Source: Hydrocarboniphaga daqingensis
GTDB taxonomy: Bacteria; Pseudomonadota; Gammaproteobacteria; Nevskiales; Nevskiaceae
NCBI RefSeq assembly: GCF_900129825.1
Contig: NZ_FQWZ01000001.1
Span: 434,001-498,000, forward strand
Length of the DNA stretch: 64,000 nucleotides
Direction of reading: 5' to 3'
Shown: piece by piece, positions 44,659 to 56,461 of the stretch
Position numbering within the stretch: position 1 is the first letter of the stretch
Layout: each line of letters begins with the position of its first letter
Position numbers and translations under genes: made by a program
Notes under the pieces: generated by a model
Seen by the model: only the letters and a program-made list of their open reading frames with translations
Told to the model about the DNA's origin: nothing
The model's database searches: none

Positions 44659-44866
44659 CAGACTGCCTCGTTCACACCCGCCGTACCGCGATGATGGGGC
44701 CGCAGTCCCAGCATGCAAATCGGGGTGGTGTTACAAAAGATGCGCAAATTGATTCCGTTGCAAAGCCAACGCAACAACCAAACCATCTGTACCAGCGCAT
44801 TGCACGCTGGAAGAAGCAGGGTCGATTGATTCAAGGCTGGTACAACGCCTTGAAAAATAATGAGAA
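44659..44866. other. Intergenic stretch between the AAA+ gene and the SRP RNA
   Basis: No gene is supported. It should hold the minus-strand promoter of the AAA+ gene and the 3' side of the SRP RNA. An inverted repeat TTCAAGGC-N9-GCCTTGAA (44830-44854) lies just downstream of the RNA and could help end it, but no U-tract follows on the minus strand. A 63-codon plus-strand frame here has no ribosome binding site and runs into the RNA. Confidence 0.5.
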
Positions 44867-44970
<104 letters not shown>

Positions 44971-44976
44971 AGCCGC

Positions 44977-44982
44977 ATTATC
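44977..44982 (-). promoter_or_regulatory. Candidate -10 of the SRP RNA promoter
   Basis: On the minus strand, GATAAT sits 6 nt before the first base of the SRP RNA (44970), the right distance for a -10 box. No clear -35 box was found. Confidence 0.5.
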
Positions 44983-45011
44983 GCTGATCGCCGCTGGTTT
45001 TGCCGAGTCGC

Positions 45012-45737
45012 TCAGCCGCTGGATCGTGCCGCACGCGCCGCTTGCTGCTCGACCAAGGTCAACGCGACCCGATCACGCAGGTATGCAGGGGCCAGGTCAT
45101 CGGCCGACCCGGCCTCGCCTCGCGCAAACACCGGCAGCGCCAGCGTCAGCGCGTGGCGCGCCCGCGGCAGCGCCGCGCCGTCGACGCTCAGCAGCCGATG
45201 CGGCAGCCGTGGCGTCAGCACGTCGGCATAGGTGCCCCAGCCGGTGCCGACCGCCGACCAGTCCCCGCCCGGCAGCGCCGAAAAATCGACCGCGCCGGGC
45301 GGCACGACTTGATCGGCGCACAACGGCGACGCCAATCCGGCCGCATCCCGGCCGTAAGCGCCCCAGTAGATCTCGCTCATCCGGGCATCGATGCAGGGCA
45401 GCACCCGCTCGGCGCCCTGATCCAGCGCGGCTTGGGCGAGCATGGCCAGCGACGTGATGCCGACCACCGGACGGTCCAGCCCCAGCGCCATGCCCTTGAC
45501 CAGGCCGACGCCGATGCGCACGCCCGCGAAGCTACCGGGGCCAATGCTGGCGATCAGGCCGTCGAGTTGCGCCGGCCGCAGCCCCGCATCGGCGAGCAGC
45601 GCGTGCACCAACGGCAGCAGGCGTTCAGTGTGCGTGCGCCCGACAACCTCGTGGCGCTCGACGATGGCGCCGTCGATCCACAGCGCGGCGGAACAGGCTT
45701 CGGTGGCAGTGTCGATCGCAAGCAGACGCAGCGTCAT
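45012..45737 (-). CDS. tsaB: tRNA threonylcarbamoyladenosine biosynthesis protein TsaB
   Basis: 241 residues of the ASKHA-type TsaB: LLAIDTATEACSAALW (about 4-19), HTERLLPLVHALL, IASIGPGSFAGVRIGVGLVKGMALGLD (about 63-89) and IDARMSEIYWG. It supports TsaD in making t6A37 in ANN-decoding tRNAs. The ATG at 45735-45737 fits the conserved start; the frame upstream is not conserved. It follows the helicase gene at a short distance on the same strand. Confidence 0.94.
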   Translation of the reverse strand: MTLRLLAIDTATEACSAALWIDGAIVERHEVVGRTHTERLLPLVHALLADAGLRPAQLDGLIASIGPGSFAGVRIGVGLVKGMALGLDRPVVGITSLAMLAQAALDQGAERVLPCIDARMSEIYWGAYGRDAAGLASPLCADQVVPPGAVDFSALPGGDWSAVGTGWGTYADVLTPRLPHRLLSVDGAALPRARHALTLALPVFARGEAGSADDLAPAYLRDRVALTLVEQQAARAARSSG

Positions 45738-45759
45738 CGGGATCTCGGCAGCAGCAGGT

Positions 45760-47658
45760 TCAAAGGTCGGCGGCCCAGGCCAGCGCCGCGTCGCGGTCGA
45801 CGCGCGGCATCGGCGGCAACGCATCCAGCACTTTGCGGCCGTACGGCTTGGTCCGCAGTCGCGGGTCGCCGATCACCAGCAAGCCGCGATCGCCGACGTC
45901 GCGGATCAGCCGGCCGGCGCCCTGGCGCAGCATCATCACTGCCTCGGGCAACTGGTAGTCGAAGAACGCATTGCCGCCGCGCTGGCGGATCGCGTTCAAG
46001 CGCGCTTCGAACACCGGGTCGCCCGGCGCTGCGAACGGCAGCCGATCGATCAGTACCAGCCGCAACGCCCGGCCGCGCACATCGACGCCTTCCCAAAAGC
46101 TGCTGGTGCCGACCAGCACGCCGTTGCCATCGCTGGTGAAGCGCTCCAGCAGCCGAGCGCGATCGTCGTCGCCCTGCACGTACAAGGCTTGCGTCAGACG
46201 CTGTTTGAGCGTCTGCGCAACCAGCTTGAGCGCGCGATGGCTGGTACACAGCACGAACGCGCCGCCACGAGACGCTTCGATCAGCGGCACGATCGCGTCA
46301 ATGAAAGCGGCCGTGTAGTACGGGTCGTTGGGTTCGGGCAGACCGGCCGGCAAATGCAGGCGCGCCTGCTCGGCGTAATCGAATGGGCTGTCCAGCGCCA
46401 GCGTCTGCGCGTCGGCCAAGCCGAGCTGGCGCTGGAAGTGACCGAAGTCGCCGTTGGCCGACAAGGTCGCCGACGTGAACACCCAGGCGCCAGCATGGGT
46501 CTGTCGCAGGCGCGCGAAGCTGTCGGCGACTTCGATCGGCGTCTGGTGAAAGCTGCCGCCGCGGCCGCGCGTCTCGACCCAGCGCACCAGTCCGGTGTCG
46601 GCCGTCGGCGCCGTCAGCTGGGTCCAGCGGTCGTACAACTGGGCTGCGCGCTCGAACACCGACGCCAGCACCGGCGAGCGGTCCTCGTAGGCTTTCAGCG
46701 CCTGACGCAGCGCGAACAACTGCTCGTCGAGCGTTTGCAGAATGGAACCGACCATCGGCCGCTGCAACAGGTCTTCGAAGCGCAAGCGGCCGTTGATCGA
46801 CGCCACCACGGCCTCGACCGGCAGCACGGCGGCGGTCATCGATTCGGCTGCCGCCACCAAGTCGGGCAAGTCGCCCCATTCCTCGGCTTCGGCTTGGGCG
46901 TCGCTGGCGATGTCGCGGAACTGGCGCGTCGACACGCGCACGCCAAAGAACTGCGTCGCCAGTTCCGGCAGCTGGTGGGCTTCGTCGACGACGACCGCGT
47001 CGGAGCCCGGCAGGATTTCGCCGAACCCTTCTTCCTTCAGCAGAAAGTCGGCGAACAGCAGGTGATGGTTGACCACGACCAGATCCGCCGCCAGCGCGGC
47101 GCGGCGCGCCTTGACCACGTGGCATTCGCCGAAGTCCGGGCATTTGGCGCCCAGGCAGTTGTCGGCCGTCGAGCTGACGCGCGCATACAGCGGATCGTCC
47201 GTGTTTAGATCGCCGATCTCGGACAGCTCGCCGCTGTCGGTGGCGCGCGACCAAGCGCGGATGCGCGTCAGTCGCTCGTCATAACGCCAGCCCGGCGTCT
47301 GCAGGGCACGGTCGAGGCGATGCAGGCAAACGTAGTTGGAGCGGCCCTTGAGCAAGGCGGTGCGGGCCGGCACCTTCAATGCCGTCAGCAAGCGCGGCAG
47401 GTCGCGCCGGTACAGCTGGTCCTGCAGATTCTTGGTGCCGGTGGAGACGACGATGCGCTTGCCGGCCATCAGCGCCGGCACCAGATACGCGTAGGTCTTG
47501 CCGGTGCCGGTGCCGGCTTCGACGATCAGCGTGCCGGCGGACTCGACCGTGCCGGCGACCGCCTCGGCCATCGTCTGCTGCGCGGCGCGCGGCACGAAGC
47601 CCGGCAAGCCCCGGGCGAGGACGCCGCCGTCGCCGAGCAGTTCGTCGACCTCATTCAC
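45760..47658 (-). CDS. DinG-family ATP-dependent DNA helicase (YoaA type)
   Basis: 632 residues, an XPD-like superfamily 2 helicase: FVPRAAQQTMAEAVAGT, Walker A VEAGTGTGKTYAYLVPAL (about 46-63), four cysteines of an iron-sulfur domain (C in NYVCLHR, and CLGAKCPDFGECH), DEAHQ box VVVDEAHQLPELA, and C-terminal QGAGRLIRDVGDRGLLVIGDPRL. The length fits YoaA rather than DinG (about 700). The start is GTG (47656-47658) at VNEVDELL; upstream frame is Arg/Ser-rich. It helps repair replication blocks. Confidence 0.9.
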   Translation of the reverse strand: MNEVDELLGDGGVLARGLPGFVPRAAQQTMAEAVAGTVESAGTLIVEAGTGTGKTYAYLVPALMAGKRIVVSTGTKNLQDQLYRRDLPRLLTALKVPARTALLKGRSNYVCLHRLDRALQTPGWRYDERLTRIRAWSRATDSGELSEIGDLNTDDPLYARVSSTADNCLGAKCPDFGECHVVKARRAALAADLVVVNHHLLFADFLLKEEGFGEILPGSDAVVVDEAHQLPELATQFFGVRVSTRQFRDIASDAQAEAEEWGDLPDLVAAAESMTAAVLPVEAVVASINGRLRFEDLLQRPMVGSILQTLDEQLFALRQALKAYEDRSPVLASVFERAAQLYDRWTQLTAPTADTGLVRWVETRGRGGSFHQTPIEVADSFARLRQTHAGAWVFTSATLSANGDFGHFQRQLGLADAQTLALDSPFDYAEQARLHLPAGLPEPNDPYYTAAFIDAIVPLIEASRGGAFVLCTSHRALKLVAQTLKQRLTQALYVQGDDDRARLLERFTSDGNGVLVGTSSFWEGVDVRGRALRLVLIDRLPFAAPGDPVFEARLNAIRQRGGNAFFDYQLPEAVMMLRQGAGRLIRDVGDRGLLVIGDPRLRTKPYGRKVLDALPPMPRVDRDAALAWAADL

Positions 47659-47671
47659 GACGGCCAGCGGC

Positions 47672-48301
47672 TCAGCCGCCCGCGAGGTCGCGTTGGATCT
47701 CGTCGACCTTGACCTGCGCCTGCAGGGCGCCGATCGCATCCCCCTGCGCCTGGCGTGCCGCTGCGATGACCTTCCAGTTTTCGAGCTCGACGTAGACGTT
47801 GCCGCGCGCCAGGCTGTTGGACTTCATCGCAACGCTTTCGGCGTTGTCGTACAGCTTTTTGTCCAGATACACGCGGCCCAGCGCCGACCAGACGAAGTAG
47901 TTGCGCGGCTCGATGCGTTGCGCGCGTTCCAATGCACCGCTGGCCTGGTCGTACTGACCCGCCGCGCGAGCACTGCGCGCCTGCTTCATCAGCGACAGGA
48001 CCGCCTGACTGCTGATCTCGTCGGCCGACTTCGGATACGCCGGCAGCACCTTGGGCGGCGGTGCCACCGCGACCGGCGGCGAGTACAGCGGCGTCGGTGT
48101 GTGGGCCGTGCTCGCACCCGGCGTCGGGTTCTGCCCCGGGCCGGGCGCCGTCGGCGCCGGGATCGTGCGCCCGATGTTGTCGGGCCAGGACGAAGTGCGC
48201 TGAGCGGTGGGCGTCACGCAAGCGGACAGCCCCAATGATGCTGCCAGCACCACCGGCAGCGCCGAGCGCGCCGGAAAACAGGCCTTGTAGCCAATCCTCA
48301 T
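47672..48301 (-). CDS. TPR lipoprotein, candidate PBP1b activator (LpoP-like)
   Basis: 209 residues: a signal peptide with lipobox LGLSAC (Cys28), a Pro/Thr/Ala-rich linker of about 70 residues, then TPR helices (MKQARSARAAGQYDQASGALERAQRIEPRNYFVWSALGRVYLDKKLYDNAESVAMKSN, about 123-180). The architecture and its place directly after mrcB match LpoP of Pseudomonas aeruginosa, an outer-membrane lipoprotein that activates PBP1b. Its ATG overlaps the mrcB stop by four bases (ATGA type). The role is inferred from architecture and gene order. Confidence 0.82.
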   Translation of the reverse strand: MRIGYKACFPARSALPVVLAASLGLSACVTPTAQRTSSWPDNIGRTIPAPTAPGPGQNPTPGASTAHTPTPLYSPPVAVAPPPKVLPAYPKSADEISSQAVLSLMKQARSARAAGQYDQASGALERAQRIEPRNYFVWSALGRVYLDKKLYDNAESVAMKSNSLARGNVYVELENWKVIAAARQAQGDAIGALQAQVKVDEIQRDLAGG

Positions 48302-50637
48302 TCGAAGATCTCGCGCAACCATTGCATGGGCTGGGATTCTGCAGCGCGTGCACACGGCGCCCAAGACTGCGGCGCATAGCCGCGCAGGTAGGGTATCAGC
48401 AGGCGACTGTCACAGCCCTCGTCGGCCTTAAGCCCGGTGACGGTATCGGCCAACTGCTCTTCGACATCAGGCGGCGGAATCAGGTCGAGCGGCTTGGCCT
48501 TCAGGTCTCGGATCAAGCGAGACCAGATATACAGCGCCCCGCTGGACCCGGTCAGGCCCATCGGCTTGTAGTCATCGCGGCCGACCCAGACCACCGCAAC
48601 CCGGTCGCCGGTAAAGCCGCTGAACCAGGAATCGCGCAGGTCGTCGGTGGTACCCGACTTGCCCGCCAGCGTCATCGTGTCGGGCACGATGCCGTAAGCG
48701 CTGCGGCCGGTGCCCAGGCGCATCACCTGCGTCATCGCCCAGGTCACCAGGTAGACCGGACCTTCGGGCAGCGTCTGCTTGACCCGGATCGGATAGCGGT
48801 TCAGCGGCTCGCCTTCCTTGGTGGTCACTTCGCGGATCGCCGACAGCGGGCTCTGGAAGCCGCCGGCCGCAATCGTGCCGTACATCTGCGCGACTTCCAC
48901 CGGCGCCACGTCGACGGCGCCCAGAAACATCGATGGCACCAGCGCCGGGTTGCCGGTGTAGCCGGCCTGCTTGAGCGTGTTGGCGACCGCTTTTTCGCCC
49001 ACTTCCAGCCCGAGCCGGACCGTCGGCAGGTTGTAGGACTGCGCCAGCGCCATGTACAGCGGCTGCGGGCCGTGCAGCTTGCGGTCGTAGTTCATCGGCG
49101 ACCAGATCTGCTTGGTCGGCAGCCGCAACTCGATCGGCTCGTCGTCGATCATCGAATGCAGGTTGTAGCGGTCGCCCTGTTCGAGAGCGGTCAGGTAGAC
49201 GAACGGCTTGGCCAGCGAGCCGATCGACCGCCGTGAATCCAGCGCCCGGTTGAACCCGGAGTAGCGCACGTCGCGGCCGCCGACGATGCCCAGCACGTCA
49301 CCCCCGCCGACGCTGGTGACCACGCCCGCCGACTCCAGCGTGCCGGCCGGCAGCTTGCGCGATTTCTCGATCTCGGCCAGCCCCTGCGCGATGTTGCGTT
49401 CCAGCGCCTCCTGCGAGCGCGGATCGAGCGTCGTGAAGATGCGCAGGCCCTCGTCGGTCAGATCGGAGTCTTTGTACTGCCCGCGCAGCTGGCGCTTGAC
49501 CAAGTCGACGAACGCCGGGTAACGCTCGACCCCGCCCTGCTTGGTGCCCGCCACCGACAGCGGCCGCTCGATGGCGGCGCGCATCTCGGCCTCGTCGATC
49601 AGGCCGCGTTCCTTGAACACGCGCAACACCAGATCACGACGGTCTTTGGCGCGGACCGGGTTGCGACGCGGGTTGTAGTACGACGCGCCTTTGACCACGC
49701 CGACCAGCAGTGCGACTTCGTGGTCGCGCAGCTCGCCCAGCGGCTTGTTGAAATAGAACCAGCTGGCCAGTCCGAAGCCATGGATCGCCCGGTTGCCGTC
49801 CTGGCCCAGGTAAATCTCGTTGATGTAGGCCTCGAGAATGTCGTCCTTGCTGTAGTGACGCTCCAGCAGGATCGACATGAACATCTCGTTGAACTTGCGC
49901 GTCCAGGTCCTATCGAGCGTCAGGAAGAAGTTGCGTACCAGCTGCTGGGTGACCGTGCTGGCGCCCTGCACCGCATGGCCGGCACGCAGGTTGACGAACA
50001 TCGCGCGCAATACGCCGCGGATGCTGATGCCGAAGTGGTCGTAAAAGTCGCGATCCTCGACGGCCAGCAGACCGTCGCGCAGCAGCTCGGGCACTTCTTC
50101 GAGCTTGACCAGTACGCGGTCCTCGCCCTGCTGCTGCGGGTAGATGCTGCCGATCAGCATCGGGTCCATGCGGACGATGTCGCGCGACTCGCCGCTGTCG
50201 GCGTCGGAAACGCTGGCGACACCGGCGCCGTCGAACTTGAGGCTGATTCGGTTTTCGGCGCGCGGGCCGTCCCAGAAGTGGAACGCGCGGACGTAAATGT
50301 CGGCGCCCTGACGATTCAGGCTGAACGTGCCCGGTCCTTCTAGGCTGCCCGAATCACGGTAGCCGAGGCGCTCCAGCTCGTGCTTCAGGTCGCCGGCGTC
50401 GAGGTTGAGCCCGGCATAAAGCTCCAGCGGAGCGGCGAACACCTGCGCCGGCAAGGCCCAGCGCACGCCGGCGAACCGCGTGCGGATGTCCTTGTCGAGC
50501 GACACCAGGTAGAACGAGAACACGATCAGGCCGATGCTGCCGAGCACCAGAACGACGGCAGCAGCCCCGTAAACGAACGAACGGGGAATGACCAGACGGG
50601 ATTTTCGGGCAGGGGGCGCCATATGGCGCGCCATCAT
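48298..50637 (-). CDS. mrcB: Penicillin-binding protein 1b
   Basis: 779 residues: a short cytoplasmic tail, a membrane helix (about 21-44), a UB2H-like region, then the glycosyltransferase domain with EDRDFYDHFGISIRG and GASTVTQQLVRNFFL (about 192-245). The transpeptidase domain has SIGSLAKP (SxxK, Ser at about 467), an SxN-type motif in SYN, and KSGTTDD (KSG). It polymerises and cross-links peptidoglycan. It overlaps the LpoP-like gene by 4 bp, so the two are translated together. Confidence 0.94.
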   Translation of the reverse strand: MMARHMAPPARKSRLVIPRSFVYGAAAVVLVLGSIGLIVFSFYLVSLDKDIRTRFAGVRWALPAQVFAAPLELYAGLNLDAGDLKHELERLGYRDSGSLEGPGTFSLNRQGADIYVRAFHFWDGPRAENRISLKFDGAGVASVSDADSGESRDIVRMDPMLIGSIYPQQQGEDRVLVKLEEVPELLRDGLLAVEDRDFYDHFGISIRGVLRAMFVNLRAGHAVQGASTVTQQLVRNFFLTLDRTWTRKFNEMFMSILLERHYSKDDILEAYINEIYLGQDGNRAIHGFGLASWFYFNKPLGELRDHEVALLVGVVKGASYYNPRRNPVRAKDRRDLVLRVFKERGLIDEAEMRAAIERPLSVAGTKQGGVERYPAFVDLVKRQLRGQYKDSDLTDEGLRIFTTLDPRSQEALERNIAQGLAEIEKSRKLPAGTLESAGVVTSVGGGDVLGIVGGRDVRYSGFNRALDSRRSIGSLAKPFVYLTALEQGDRYNLHSMIDDEPIELRLPTKQIWSPMNYDRKLHGPQPLYMALAQSYNLPTVRLGLEVGEKAVANTLKQAGYTGNPALVPSMFLGAVDVAPVEVAQMYGTIAAGGFQSPLSAIREVTTKEGEPLNRYPIRVKQTLPEGPVYLVTWAMTQVMRLGTGRSAYGIVPDTMTLAGKSGTTDDLRDSWFSGFTGDRVAVVWVGRDDYKPMGLTGSSGALYIWSRLIRDLKAKPLDLIPPPDVEEQLADTVTGLKADEGCDSRLLIPYLRGYAPQSWAPCARAAESQPMQWLREIFE

Positions 50638-50705
50638 ACCGGCTTGGCGCCGGATGCGGACGTCGGAGGGCGGCTAAACCCCGGCGACGTCGGCGTCGAC
50701 GGCGC

Positions 50706-51422
50706 TTATTCGCCGCGCACTTCGCGCTCGACCTGCTCCAGCGGCGTGTGGCGAACGTCCTTGCCCTTGACGAAGTAGATCACGTACTCGGCGATGTTCT
50801 TGGCGTGGTCGCCGATGCGCTCGATGGCCCGTACCGCCCAGATCAAGTCAATCACCCGGCCGATCGTGCGCGGTTCTTCCATCATGTAGGTGATGCACTG
50901 GCGCAACAGCGCCTCGTATTCGCGGTCGATGACGGCGTCTTCGCGGACCACCGCCAGTGCGGCGTCGGCGTCCATCCGCGCAAACGCGTCGAGCGCGCCA
51001 CGGACCATCTGCGAGACCTGCCGAGACAGATGCTGCGTCTCGACCATGTTCTCGTACATCCGCTCCTGCGTGGACAGCTCATGGGCCATCTTGGCGATCT
51101 TGTGCGACTCGTCGCCAATGCGTTCCAGGTCGGTGATCGTCTTGATCACCGCATGCACCAGACGCAGGTCGCTCGCCGTCGGCTGGCGACGCGCCAGAAT
51201 CCGCGAGCATTCCTCGTCGATGTACATTTCCAGCTGATCGACCTTGTCGTCAGTGCGGAACACGACTTCGGCCAACTCGGTGTCGAGTTCCATCAACGCC
51301 TTGGTCGCATCGATCAGCTGTTGCTCGACCAAGCCGCCCATTGCCAGCACGCGCTGGCGTACGTCTTCCAATTCAGCGTTGAACTGGCTGGAGATATGCG
51401 ACTTGTATCCGGTCGTATTCAT
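50706..51422 (-). CDS. phoU: Phosphate signalling regulator PhoU
   Basis: 238 residues with two homologous three-helix PhoU repeats, each with metal-binding EDAVIDREYEALL/TDDKVDQLEMYIDEEC segments. It contacts PstB and PhoR to keep the Pho regulon off when phosphate is plentiful. It is the last gene of pstSCAB-phoU on the minus strand. phoB and phoR are not in the window. Confidence 0.96.
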   Translation of the reverse strand: MNTTGYKSHISSQFNAELEDVRQRVLAMGGLVEQQLIDATKALMELDTELAEVVFRTDDKVDQLEMYIDEECSRILARRQPTASDLRLVHAVIKTITDLERIGDESHKIAKMAHELSTQERMYENMVETQHLSRQVSQMVRGALDAFARMDADAALAVVREDAVIDREYEALLRQCITYMMEEPRTIGRVIDLIWAVRAIERIGDHAKNIAEYVIYFVKGKDVRHTPLEQVEREVRGE

Positions 51423-51543
51423 CTGTCGCTCTTACCTTGGAACATCAAGCTGCGAAGTCGCTGCGTGTATTGCCGTTCTGTAGCCGCCATCGTTGGCCGG
51501 GCTTTCGCCACTGCGGAACGTCCACCGGACATTCCGCAACGAC

Positions 51544-52404
51544 TCAACCGTATCGACCGGTGATGTAATCCTCGGTCTGCTTCTTGGTCGGCTTGGTGAA
51601 CAACTGGTCGGTGTTGCCGAACTCGATCAGATCACCAACATACATGAATGCCGTGTAGTCGCTGACGCGAGCGGCCTGCTGCATGTTGTGGGTGACGATC
51701 ACGATCGTGTAGTTGTTCTTCAACTCGGTGATCAGCTCTTCGACCTTCAGCGTCGAGATCGGGTCAAGCGCCGAGCACGGCTCGTCGAGCAGGATCACGT
51801 CAGGCTGAATGGCGATGGCACGGGCGATCACCAAACGCTGTTGCTGGCCACCGGACAATCCCAGTGCCGAATCGTCGAGGCGGTCTTTGACCTCATCCCA
51901 CAGCGCGGCACCCTTGAGTGCCCACTCCACGGTTTCGTCGATGACGCGCTTCTTGTTGATGCCCGCGAGGCGCAGGCCGTAGGCCACGTTCTCGTAGATC
52001 GACTTCGGAAACGGATTGGCCTTCTGGAACACCATGCCGACGCGACGACGCAGCATCGCAATATCGACGTCGCGGTCGTAGATGTTCTTGCCGTCGAGCC
52101 GCAAGCCGCCTTCGACATGGCAGCCGTCGATCAGGTCGTTCATTCGGTTGAAGCAGCGCAACAGCGTCGACTTGCCGCAGCCCGAAGGGCCAATGAAGGC
52201 AGTGACCTTCTTGTGCGGGATCTTCATCGACACGTTATGCAGCGCGCGCTTCTGGCCGTAGTACAGGTTGAGCGCATCGACTTCGATGGCGATCGACTCG
52301 TCTTCGATCCGCGTCGGGGTCTGCGAGCGCTCCATCGACGAGATGTCGATGCCGTGGCTCAACTGGGTCTTGGTTTGCACGCTGGTCATGGTTTGATGGT
52401 CCAA
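51544..52404 (-). CDS. pstB: Phosphate ABC transporter ATPase PstB
   Basis: 286 residues. Walker [10 protein letters not shown] (about 72-80), signature LSGGQQQR, Walker [13 protein letters not shown], and H-loop VTHNMQQA are intact. The N-terminal 40 residues precede the ABC domain and are longer than in E. coli (257 residues); a second ATG at 52389 is possible. It energises uptake through PstC/PstA. Confidence 0.96.
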
Positions 52405-52435: not shown

Positions 52436-54166
52436 CTAGCCCTCGAGGGCCTTGTAGCGTTCGCGCAGCCGGTTGCGGATGCTGATGGCGGTCAGGTTCA
52501 GCGCCAGGATCACCAACACCAGCAGAAACGCCGTGGCGTAAACCAAGGGGCGCGCCGCTTCAACGTTGGGTGACTGGAAGCCGACGTCGTAGATGTGGAA
52601 GCCCAAGTGCATGAACTTGCGCTCGAGATGCAGGTACGGAAAGTCGCCGTCCAGCGGCAGCGACGGTGCCAGCTTGACGACACCGACGAGCATCAGCGGC
52701 GCAACTTCGCCGGCGGCTCGGGCGATCGCCAGAATCAGTCCGGTCATCATCGCCGGCGATGCCATCGGCAGCACGACGCGCCACAGCGTTTCAGCCTTGG
52801 TCGCCCCCAGGGCCAGCGAGGCCTCGCGCAGCGAGCGCGGGATACGCGCCAGACCCTCTTCGGTGGCCACGATCACCACCGGCAGCGTCAGCAGTGCCAG
52901 CGTCAGCGATGACCAGAGAATGCCGGGCGTACCGAACGTCGGGGCCGGCAGCGACTCGGAATACAAGGCCCGGTCGATGTTGCCACCGACGAAGTAGACG
53001 AAGAAGCCCAAACCGAACATGCCGTAGACGATCGATGGCACACCAGCCAGATTGTTGACGGCGATACGGATCGACTGGGTCACCACGCCCTGCCGGGCGT
53101 ACTCGCGCAGGTACAACGCAGCCAACACACCGAACGGCATCACCACGACCGACATCAGCAGCACCATCAAAACCGTGCCGAAAATCGCGGGAAAGATGCC
53201 GCCTTCAGTATTGGCTTCGCGCGGCTCCTCGGAGACGAACTTCCACAGACGGTGGAAGAAGTAGCCGGTCTTCTGCAGCAAGTTCATCGCATTAGGGCGA
53301 TAGGCGTCGAGGATCTTGGCCAGCGGCAGCGTCACCTCGCTACCGTCGACGGTGCGCACTCGCACCGTGTCACGCGCCAACTCGGCCTTGATCAGATCGA
53401 GTTCACCGCGCAGTCCCTGATAAGCGGCCTCCTGCTCTTTGCGACGCTGATCGAGCTCGGCATAGGCCGCCGGGTCGTTCTCGGGCGTGCGGCCATCGAG
53501 TTGCAGCCGGCGCTGGTCGAGACGGACGCGCTCGATCGCGTAATTGATGCTGCCAATCCGACCTTTCTCGATCGCGCGAAGCTTGGATCGAAGTTCGTTG
53601 GCGCGGTCGACGCGTTGTTGGAACAACGCCCACAGGTCAGCACCCGAATCGACCGGCTTGCCGTCCTCGTCGATTCCGGCAAGAAACCCGTGGAAGTTGC
53701 CCCACTCGGTGCGCTCCAGCACGACCGCGTCGGCCGGCTCGCTACGCTCGACCAGCCAGTCCGACAACAAGTAGCGGAAATCGACACCGTTGACGTCGCG
53801 ATTGGCTTGCTTGACCAGCAGTCGCTGATGCAGTGGCTTGTCATCGGTCACGGCCAAGCCGGCATCACGCAGTCGCGCGGTCGTGATCTCTTCGGCGCTG
53901 CGAATCTCGACCAGCAGCGACTCGGCGTCGCGCTCCGGTTGCTGGTACCGGCCCTGCACCAGATCGGCCGGCCAGAAGTGCGGCAGACCGCGTGTGGCCG
54001 TCAGGACCAGCAACGCCAGCGTAATGATGAACGCAACCGATATCGCGGCCGCCGTAACCCACACGTAGGGCGCGCCCGACTTGATGTAAGCGTTGACGCC
54101 GCGCGTGTCCTGCGCGACCAGCGTCTTGGGCATTGCAGCGGCGATTTCCTGCTGGGCAGTGGCCAT
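52436..54166 (-). CDS. pstA: Phosphate ABC transporter permease PstA (long form)
   Basis: 576 residues, nearly twice the 296 of E. coli PstA. A first membrane helix (about 35-58) is followed by a periplasmic/coiled region to about 300 (DUF3333-type). The permease domain then has about five helices, with EAA loop [31 protein letters not shown]. It forms the phosphate channel with PstC. The long N-terminal part occurs in several proteobacterial groups and may tune sensing. Confidence 0.93.
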
Positions 54167-54184
54167 GTTGTCGTCGTCGCCAGA

Positions 54185-56461
54185 TTAGAGGCTGCTGTAC
54201 TTGCGGCGCAGGCGCGAGCGCACCACTTCCGCCACGGTATTGAAGAAGAACGTGAACAAGAACAGCACCAGGCCCGATAGGAACAGCATGCGGAAGTGGG
54301 TGCTGCCGACTTCGGATTCCGGCATTTCGACGGCGACGTTGGCCGCCAAGGTGCGCATGCCGGAGAACAGACTGAAGTCGGTGACCGGCGTGTTGCCGGT
54401 GGCCATCAGCACAATCATCGTCTCGCCGACGGCGCGACCCAAGCCGATCATGATCGCCGAGAAAATGCCGGGGCTTGCCGTCGGCAGCACGACGCCGATC
54501 AGCGTCTGCCACGGCGTCGCACCCAGCGCCAGTGAGCCGAGCGACAGATGCTTGGGCACCGAGAAGATCGCATCTTCGGCGATCGAGAAAACTACCGGAA
54601 TCACCGCCACACCCATCGCGATGCCGACCACCAGCGCATTGCGCTGGTCGTAACCGATGCCCAGCACATGGTCCATCCAGGCCTGCATGTTGCCGCCGAA
54701 GGCCAGCGCTTCGATCGGCTTGGCGACAAGGAAACAAAACCAGACGATCAGCGCAATCACCGGCATCAGCAGAGCAGCTTCCCAGCCCATCGGCACGCTC
54801 TGGCGCACGCGCTGTGGTGCGCGCATCCACAGATACCCGAAGGTCGGCACCGCTAGAGGCAACAGCAATAACGCCAGGAACATGCCCGGTAGATTGCTTT
54901 CGACGAACGGCGCCAGCCACAAGCCCGCAAGGAATCCGAGGATGACCGACGGCAGTGCGGCGAGGACTTCGACCGCCGGCTTGACCACCTGACGCATCTC
55001 GGGCGACATGAAATTGGCGGTGAAAATCGCGCCGAGGACCGCGATCGGAACGGCAAAGATCATTGCGTAGAACGCGCCCTTAAGCGTGCCCAGCGCCAGC
55101 GGTGCCATGCTGAACTTGGGCTCGAAATCAGCGCTGGCCGATGACGATTGCCACAGCAACTTGGGCTCGTCGTAGCTCTCGTACCAAACCTTGCCCCAGA
55201 GTGCGCTCAGCGAAATCTCCGGATGCTCGTTGTGTACATCGGTCGCAACGAGTCGGCCGTCGGTGCCCAAGGCCAACAACAACTGCGCACGCGGATTGAA
55301 TGCCAGGGCCGCCACCGACGTGTCGAGCAGCTTCTGCTGGTGGATCAAGCGGCCCGACGTCGCGTAGAACAGCGAAACGCGACCCTGGTCGTCGCCCACG
55401 GCAAAACCGCGACGACGCGGCTCGGCACCGATCGCGGTCGGCGTGGCGCCGTTCTCCAGCTGGAAGTCGCGCACGTGGGCAAGGTAGGTCTCGCCTTCAT
55501 TGGCGCCGCCCTGCTGCCGCGCCGGGAACCATTGCGACAGGCGGCCGTCGCGATGCGCCACGATGATGGAGATGCCGCCCGCGAGGTAGTGAGCATCGAC
55601 GATCGGCGCGTCGGCATCGGCGACTTCGATCAGCTTGGGTGCTTCGCTGCCATTGACGCGGTAGAAAGCGATCTTGCCGGCCGCTTTGTCGATCGCATAC
55701 AGCCAGCGCATTTCAGGTTCGAGCAGCAGCAGGTCAGGCTTGACCGGCGCCGGCAGCTTCTGCACCGCCGACTCGGTGACTTCACTGTCGCCCATCAGCG
55801 AGGTCGTGACTTCGAACGATTTCAGATACAGATTGCCGTCGGCGTCAGCGCCGGCCAGCATCAAGGCGTCGTCGCTGCTTCTCACGGCCAGATGAACCGG
55901 CGCCTGCGGCATGAAGGGCAACGGCGCCTCGCCACGCGGATAAACCACGCTAGGAGTAATCAAACGCTTGTCGTCGGGATAGGTCACTTTGTAGTCGAGC
56001 TGGAAGATCAGCACCGACCCATCGACCAGTCCGCCGGCCAATACCGAGCGCTCAGGCGCGACGTCGACCACACGCTGCAGTGCAATACCTCCTACCGGCA
56101 GCGCAACCTGTGCCCGCAGCGCGCCCGAGTGAAGATCGAAAAAGTTGAGAACACCGGATTGTCCGATCCGGGTACCCACTTCGCCCTGCTCTTCGGCCGC
56201 CACATACAAGGCCGGGCTGCCGTCGTCGGGGACCGTGATCGCCGGGCGCGCCTCGAAGGCCGCGCCAGCAAACAGCGGCGCGACTTCGGTCAACAGATAG
56301 ACAAAGATCAGCAGCAGAGCGGCGATGACGCCGATGCCGCCGATCAGCACCACGATCTTGGCCAGCCGATCCTTGAGGTAGCGCGGCTGATAGCCAGCAC
56401 TGCCGGCGACAATGGAGCGCGGCTTCCGGTCGGGGGCTTCGGCTGGGGAGACTTGGGTCAT
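54185..56461 (-). CDS. pstC: Phosphate ABC transporter permease PstC (long form with propeller-like domain)
   Basis: 758 residues against 319 in E. coli. After helix 1 (about 34-58), a periplasmic region to about 440 shows repeated beta blades of WD/PQQ-like spacing (LYAIDKAAGKIAFYRV, FAVGDDQGRVSLFYATSGRLI, LLALGTDGRLVATDV). The permease domain follows with EAA loop AEDAIFSVPKHLSLGSLALGATPWQTLIGVVLP. It pairs with PstA. The large sensor-like domain suggests interaction with PstS or a periplasmic signal. Confidence 0.92.
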   Translation of the reverse strand: MTQVSPAEAPDRKPRSIVAGSAGYQPRYLKDRLAKIVVLIGGIGVIAALLLIFVYLLTEVAPLFAGAAFEARPAITVPDDGSPALYVAAEEQGEVGTRIGQSGVLNFFDLHSGALRAQVALPVGGIALQRVVDVAPERSVLAGGLVDGSVLIFQLDYKVTYPDDKRLITPSVVYPRGEAPLPFMPQAPVHLAVRSSDDALMLAGADADGNLYLKSFEVTTSLMGDSEVTESAVQKLPAPVKPDLLLLEPEMRWLYAIDKAAGKIAFYRVNGSEAPKLIEVADADAPIVDAHYLAGGISIIVAHRDGRLSQWFPARQQGGANEGETYLAHVRDFQLENGATPTAIGAEPRRRGFAVGDDQGRVSLFYATSGRLIHQQKLLDTSVAALAFNPRAQLLLALGTDGRLVATDVHNEHPEISLSALWGKVWYESYDEPKLLWQSSSASADFEPKFSMAPLALGTLKGAFYAMIFAVPIAVLGAIFTANFMSPEMRQVVKPAVEVLAALPSVILGFLAGLWLAPFVESNLPGMFLALLLLPLAVPTFGYLWMRAPQRVRQSVPMGWEAALLMPVIALIVWFCFLVAKPIEALAFGGNMQAWMDHVLGIGYDQRNALVVGIAMGVAVIPVVFSIAEDAIFSVPKHLSLGSLALGATPWQTLIGVVLPTASPGIFSAIMIGLGRAVGETMIVLMATGNTPVTDFSLFSGMRTLAANVAVEMPESEVGSTHFRMLFLSGLVLFLFTFFFNTVAEVVRSRLRRKYSSL

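Follow-up and report, generated by a model that had tools for sequence, protein, structure and literature searches.

Gene organization at the mrcB locus

In the 64,000-nucleotide stretch of Hydrocarboniphaga daqingensis DNA that we analysed (the window), the gene for a TPR lipoprotein directly follows mrcB, the gene for penicillin-binding protein 1b (PBP1b), on the minus strand (Table 1). The mrcB product passes the PBP_1b equivalog model with 839.8 bits against a cut-off of 717.75 (TIGR02071). The minus-strand junction between the two genes reads TTCGAATGAGGATT, and the ATG of the lipoprotein gene and the TGA of mrcB have four bases in common. These features had been claimed in an earlier note on this DNA: its coordinates and the 4-bp overlap are borne out by the open reading frames and the junction sequence, and the lipobox, the Pro-rich linker and the TPR domain (PF07719) that it described are also present. 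An in-frame ATG located 21 bases upstream is a possible alternative start of the lipoprotein gene, which would extend the overlap with mrcB to 25 bases. The overlap makes translational coupling of mrcB and the lipoprotein gene plausible.

The gene order on the minus strand is pstC-pstA-pstB-phoU-mrcB-lpoP-yoaA-tsaB. Thus, PhoU, PstB and the Pst permeases are encoded on the upstream side of mrcB, and the gene downstream of lpoP encodes the helicase YoaA (806 bits, cut-off 680), followed by TsaB. In a scan of positions 44800-52000 for promoters and terminators, a single promoter-like site and a single terminator-like one came up at about 45 kb; shuffled sequence is expected to give 0.7 and 4.0, respectively, and the scan is uninformative. 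The phoU gene lies 68 bases upstream of mrcB (window 50638-51422), and a phoU match was found upstream of mrcB in 20 of the 40 named loci described below, some of which have little flanking sequence; the PBP1b/LpoP pair therefore often remains next to the phosphate-uptake operon. The NCBI models for PstA and PstC span 272 and 296 positions, respectively; the proteins encoded in the window (576 and 758 aa; 52439-56461) are about twice that length or more and are matched in their C-terminal halves only.

Table 1 Features of the mrcB-lpoP gene pair, with positions numbered from the first base of the window.
Feature	Position	Strand	Description and basis
mrcB	48298..50637	-	Class A penicillin-binding protein 1b, 779 aa; UB2H, glycosyltransferase and transpeptidase domains; TIGR02071, PF14814, PF00912, PF00905
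UB2H domain of PBP1b, residues 73-157	50167..50421	-	PF14814, 82.3 bits (cut-off 27); predicted docking site for the lipoprotein
lpoP-like gene	47672..48301	-	209-aa TPR lipoprotein, predicted outer-membrane PBP1b activator; open reading frame, PDB 6w5q match, fold, reciprocal search
4-base overlap ATGA (lpoP start/mrcB stop)	48298..48301	-	Sequence
Signal peptide of the lipoprotein type with the lipobox LSAC; Cys28, predicted to be lipidated	48218..48301	-	Sequence; Cys aligned in relatives
Pro-rich flexible tether (predicted), residues 29-88	48038..48217	-	60 residues with 16 Pro; residues up to 92 without predicted secondary structure
TPR domain with six helices, residues 99-208	47678..48007	-	AlphaFold2 model; 6w5q_D match
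Patch predicted to contact UB2H, residues 124-140 (last part of helix 2 through the turn into helix 3)	47882..47932	-	Low column entropy; NMR-mapped LpoP site

Architecture of the lipoprotein

The C-terminal part of the lipoprotein reaches 27.1 bits with the TPR model PF07719, whose cut-off is 27; other TPR models match more weakly and stay under their cut-offs. In the AlphaFold2 model, built with 39 sequences, residues 91-200 have block pLDDT values of 97-99 and the domain consists of six helices, and the N-terminal part has block values of 55-77 up to residue 80. For the analysis of conservation, we aligned 69 sequences gathered by whole-protein or profile search, 29 from the order-level set, which were picked for a lipobox start, and 40 from the class-wide sample; one of the 30 order-level loci (L010) was left out because its lipobox falls outside the pattern. 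A cysteine is aligned to Cys28 in all 69 sequences, 29 of which (the window sequence included) had been chosen for the lipobox start. The 40 class-wide relatives were not chosen for a lipobox, and all of them have the aligned cysteine, with 34 meeting the strict lipobox-plus-start pattern.

Several other family assignments were considered. The lipoprotein is not LpoB, as Pfam assigns it a TPR and not the LpoB domain (PF13036/TIGR02722). CpoB and NlpI gave no model match at E 1, the PilW model TIGR02521 reached 15.3 bits against a cut-off of 154, and a search of PHROGs gave no match at E 0.01.

Relationship to Pseudomonas aeruginosa LpoP

LpoP, reportedly first described by Greene et al. 2018, is the closest relative of known structure as follows: First, the best PDB sequence match of the lipoprotein is P. 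aeruginosa LpoP (6w5q, E 2.3e-11, residues 92-198), ahead of generic TPR proteins. In a profile search of the PDB with 39 sequences, LpoP scored 101.1 bits in a single stretch over the domain, and two engineered TPR repeat proteins exceeded it in total bits (159.9 and 122.9) through repeated matches. Second, the LpoP chains occupy ranks 1-7 in a Foldseek search with the lipoprotein model at 36-37% identity, with an rmsd of 0.8-1.0 Å for six of the seven and 2.2 Å for the other. In the VIA comparison, the model matched 6w5q_D with a Z of 18.9 at 0.9 Å over 105 residues; the next entry had a Z of 16.8, and many TPR chains score a high Z. Since TPR folds are common, the fold match taken by itself would be weak. 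Third, when the 107-aa domain of P. aeruginosa LpoP served as the query of a reciprocal search against the whole H. daqingensis genome, this gene alone was retrieved (E 5.6e-12, threshold E 0.001).

The earlier note had recognized in the gene pair the LpoP-PBP1b pair of Pseudomonas, and this identification is supported by sequence, fold, reciprocal search, gene neighbourhood and a conserved surface patch. The LpoP family and its mechanism are already published; the H. daqingensis gene is a well-supported new member of the family, and as such unsurprising.

A conserved patch at the helix 2-helix 3 junction

Across the 69 sequences, the 10-residue stretches of lowest entropy in the domain begin at residues 124 and 125, at 0.92 bits compared with a domain mean of 1.97. 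Within this region, R126 is conserved in 69 of 69 sequences, E125 in 66, W138 in 61, R129 in 57, N134 in 56 and R133 in 49. A further alignment (A2) was not used as evidence for conservation, as its loci had been fetched with the required motif [IL]EPRN[PYA][FW][VI][WYF]; its conservation result held when the analysis was redone on the 69 sequences, which carry no such requirement. We take A108, A120, L124, A127, P132 and W138 to be ordinary TPR consensus positions, and N134 to be common in TPRs. Because E125, R126, R129 and R133 are conserved and are not typical TPR positions, they are the best candidates for contacting UB2H and probably do so. The junction of helices 2 and 3, the most conserved part of the domain, is the same place that was mapped by NMR as the main contact of P. 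aeruginosa LpoP with UB2H (PMC7267771).

Conservation of the gene pair in the order

UB2H is present in all 41 order-level genomes (H. daqingensis and 40 relatives), and a search with the lipoprotein gave a match in 40 of them. In 38 of these 40 genomes, our own included, the lpoP match lies 2.1-2.6 kb downstream of the UB2H match on the same strand, a recurrence that is not due to chance. The lpoP and mrcB matches of G029 and G030 are on different contigs, and the G030 match contains an in-frame TGA. A protein search of the genome G028 gave no LpoP match, although a UB2H-type PBP1b is present (locus L073, G028:C195:10500-15000), and the mrcB frame there runs directly into the yoaA frame. Thus, at least one lineage can dispense with the activator or replace it.

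We also inspected 40 named loci from Hydrocarboniphaga, Panacagrimonas, Solimonas, Nevskia, Salinisphaera and others, whose genomes are partly shared with the order-level set, so that the two sets are not independent. The mrcB gene is upstream of lpoP in 39 of the 40 loci, the remaining one (L111) reaching the end of its contig, and yoaA is downstream in 39. The lipobox-start pattern is likewise met in 39 loci, the exception being L081, which has LLNAC. The loci nearest to the window gene are from Hydrocarboniphaga, with the best segment of one of them (L076) being 82% identical. Relatives do not all share the 4-base overlap: it was assigned by script in 17 of the 28 measurable order-level loci, next to one 1-base overlap and ten other spacings of up to 385 bases, and in 19 of the 38 named loci with a script-measured gap. 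L081, which is the same gene as L010 missed by the script, has the 4-base overlap too.

Distribution of LpoP and LpoB in the class

A class-wide sample of 274 genomes was searched with an LpoP profile (E 0.001) and with UB2H (E 1e-8), giving matches in 195 genomes for the former, which include other TPR proteins, and in 160 for the latter. The neighbourhood counts rest on the matches listed, namely 150 LpoP matches from 148 genomes and 150 genomes with UB2H. In 117 of these 150 UB2H genomes, a listed LpoP match follows 2.1-3.1 kb downstream on the same strand, a position in which we estimate a random match to fall with a chance of about 0.1%; in a further 12 the listed match is at another place or on a separate contig, and for the remaining 21 there is none among the matches listed. 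We fetched 40 loci with an adjacent match, comprising 20 of the 28 with an additional LpoB (see below), 19 others and G027, and every one of them contains an open reading frame matching the profile of the order-level family.

The genome of H. daqingensis gave no LpoB match at E 0.001 (PF13036, TIGR02722). LpoA (PF04348) is found in it, as in all 41 genomes searched, and therefore does not discriminate. PF13036 matches were obtained in 15 of the 41 order-level genomes; those in G024 (1.5e-20) and G011 (1.0e-17) are strong and full-length. Since both of these genomes carry an adjacent LpoP in addition to the strong LpoB match, LpoP is not just a substitute for LpoB. In the class-wide sample, a PF13036 match at E < 1e-13 was obtained in 53 genomes; 37 of them belong to the UB2H genomes listed, and 28 of these 37 have an adjacent LpoP as well. 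Seven of the 28 (G049, G111, G140, G202, G217, G235 and G241) pass the NCBI equivalog cut-off for LpoB, and each of them has one UB2H match (E 1e-8). Contamination of 0-4% in these genomes and the broad reach of PF13036 call for caution.

LpoP-type genes are thus commoner than strong LpoB matches in the class sample, which was less expected and suggests that activation of the LpoP type predominates there. As a tentative reading, which we hold to be possible but on balance doubtful, LpoP rather than LpoB would be the commoner and perhaps the older activator of UB2H-type PBP1b in Gammaproteobacteria, with many species having both for a single PBP1b. If this is true, dual activation of one synthase would be a widespread regulatory layer, with H. 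daqingensis representing the LpoP-only state, and genomes with both activators are places to probe the division of labour between LpoP and LpoB. The literature on LpoP, to the extent of its accessible text, contains no statement on the co-occurrence of LpoP and LpoB; Greene et al. 2018 was outside this search.

Proposed role of the lipoprotein

Having established which genes and domains are present, their homology and predicted fold, the synteny and the conserved patch, we consider the lipoprotein very probably to be the LpoP of H. daqingensis, which would be anchored in the outer membrane, dock on UB2H and stimulate PBP1b. After export and lipidation at Cys28, the protein would be held in the outer membrane, a location suggested by the LpoP proteins of P. 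aeruginosa and Acinetobacter baumannii. Its Pro-rich tether of about 60 residues would let the TPR domain cross the peptidoglycan mesh to the synthase in the inner membrane. By analogy with the same two proteins, the helix 2-helix 3 face would dock on the UB2H domain of PBP1b and the docking would stimulate the glycosyltransferase and transpeptidase, probably at thin or porous sites of the wall. The overlap of the genes may keep production of the synthase and its activator linked.

The conserved patch and the adjacency of the genes indicate a partnership and not its sign. An LpoP-family protein might bind PBP1b and mainly place or restrain it, for example by linking it to division or to outer-membrane constriction, with activation being minor or absent; the TPR protein CpoB of E. 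coli, whose gene lies beside tol-pal, is a negative modulator of PBP1b (PMC7267771). We regard this as improbable, as the LpoP proteins of P. aeruginosa (PMC7267771) and A. baumannii (PMC7943195) both stimulate their PBP1b. A generic TPR lipoprotein, such as a scaffold of the CpoB, PilW or NlpI kind that happens to be encoded in the mrcB operon and has another envelope role, would fit the Pfam and NCBIfam matches, which are all TPR-type with no matched model named for LpoP, and the LpoP domain itself resembles the TPR domain of CpoB in fold (PMC7267771), but it is very unlikely given that LpoP comes ahead of every PDB chain in the single-sequence search and first in the structure comparisons, that the P. 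aeruginosa domain finds this gene only, and that the gene adjoins a UB2H-type mrcB across the class.

Identified as LpoP, the lipoprotein is the likely activator of PBP1b in Hydrocarboniphaga and its kin, a lineage that has received little study, and it offers a divergent homologue with a short tether for comparison with Pseudomonas LpoP.

Comparison with known systems

CpoB differs from the H. daqingensis lipoprotein in that no CpoB model is among the family matches of the latter. E. coli LpoB, an outer-membrane lipoprotein with a disordered tether that docks on UB2H, resembles the proposed H. daqingensis LpoP in the outline of its action but has an unrelated fold (PMC7267771). A. baumannii LpoP is a TPR lipoprotein whose gene adjoins that of PBP1b, an arrangement like the one in H. 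daqingensis, and it has been shown biochemically to stimulate A. baumannii PBP1b (PMC7943195). The closest parallel is P. aeruginosa LpoP (PDB 6w5q, Caveney et al. 2020), which binds its PBP1b with a KD of 4.2 μM and raises the glycosyltransferase rate 4.5-fold and the transpeptidase products 2-fold (PMC7267771). It is longer than the H. daqingensis protein (259 vs 209 aa), whose tether of about 60 residues is roughly half of the 127 residues in P. aeruginosa (PMC7267771), whereas the lipobox, the disordered N-terminus (predicted in H. daqingensis), the six-helix TPR domain (~36% identity), the conserved helix 2-3 junction and the UB2H-type PBP1b partner are common to both.
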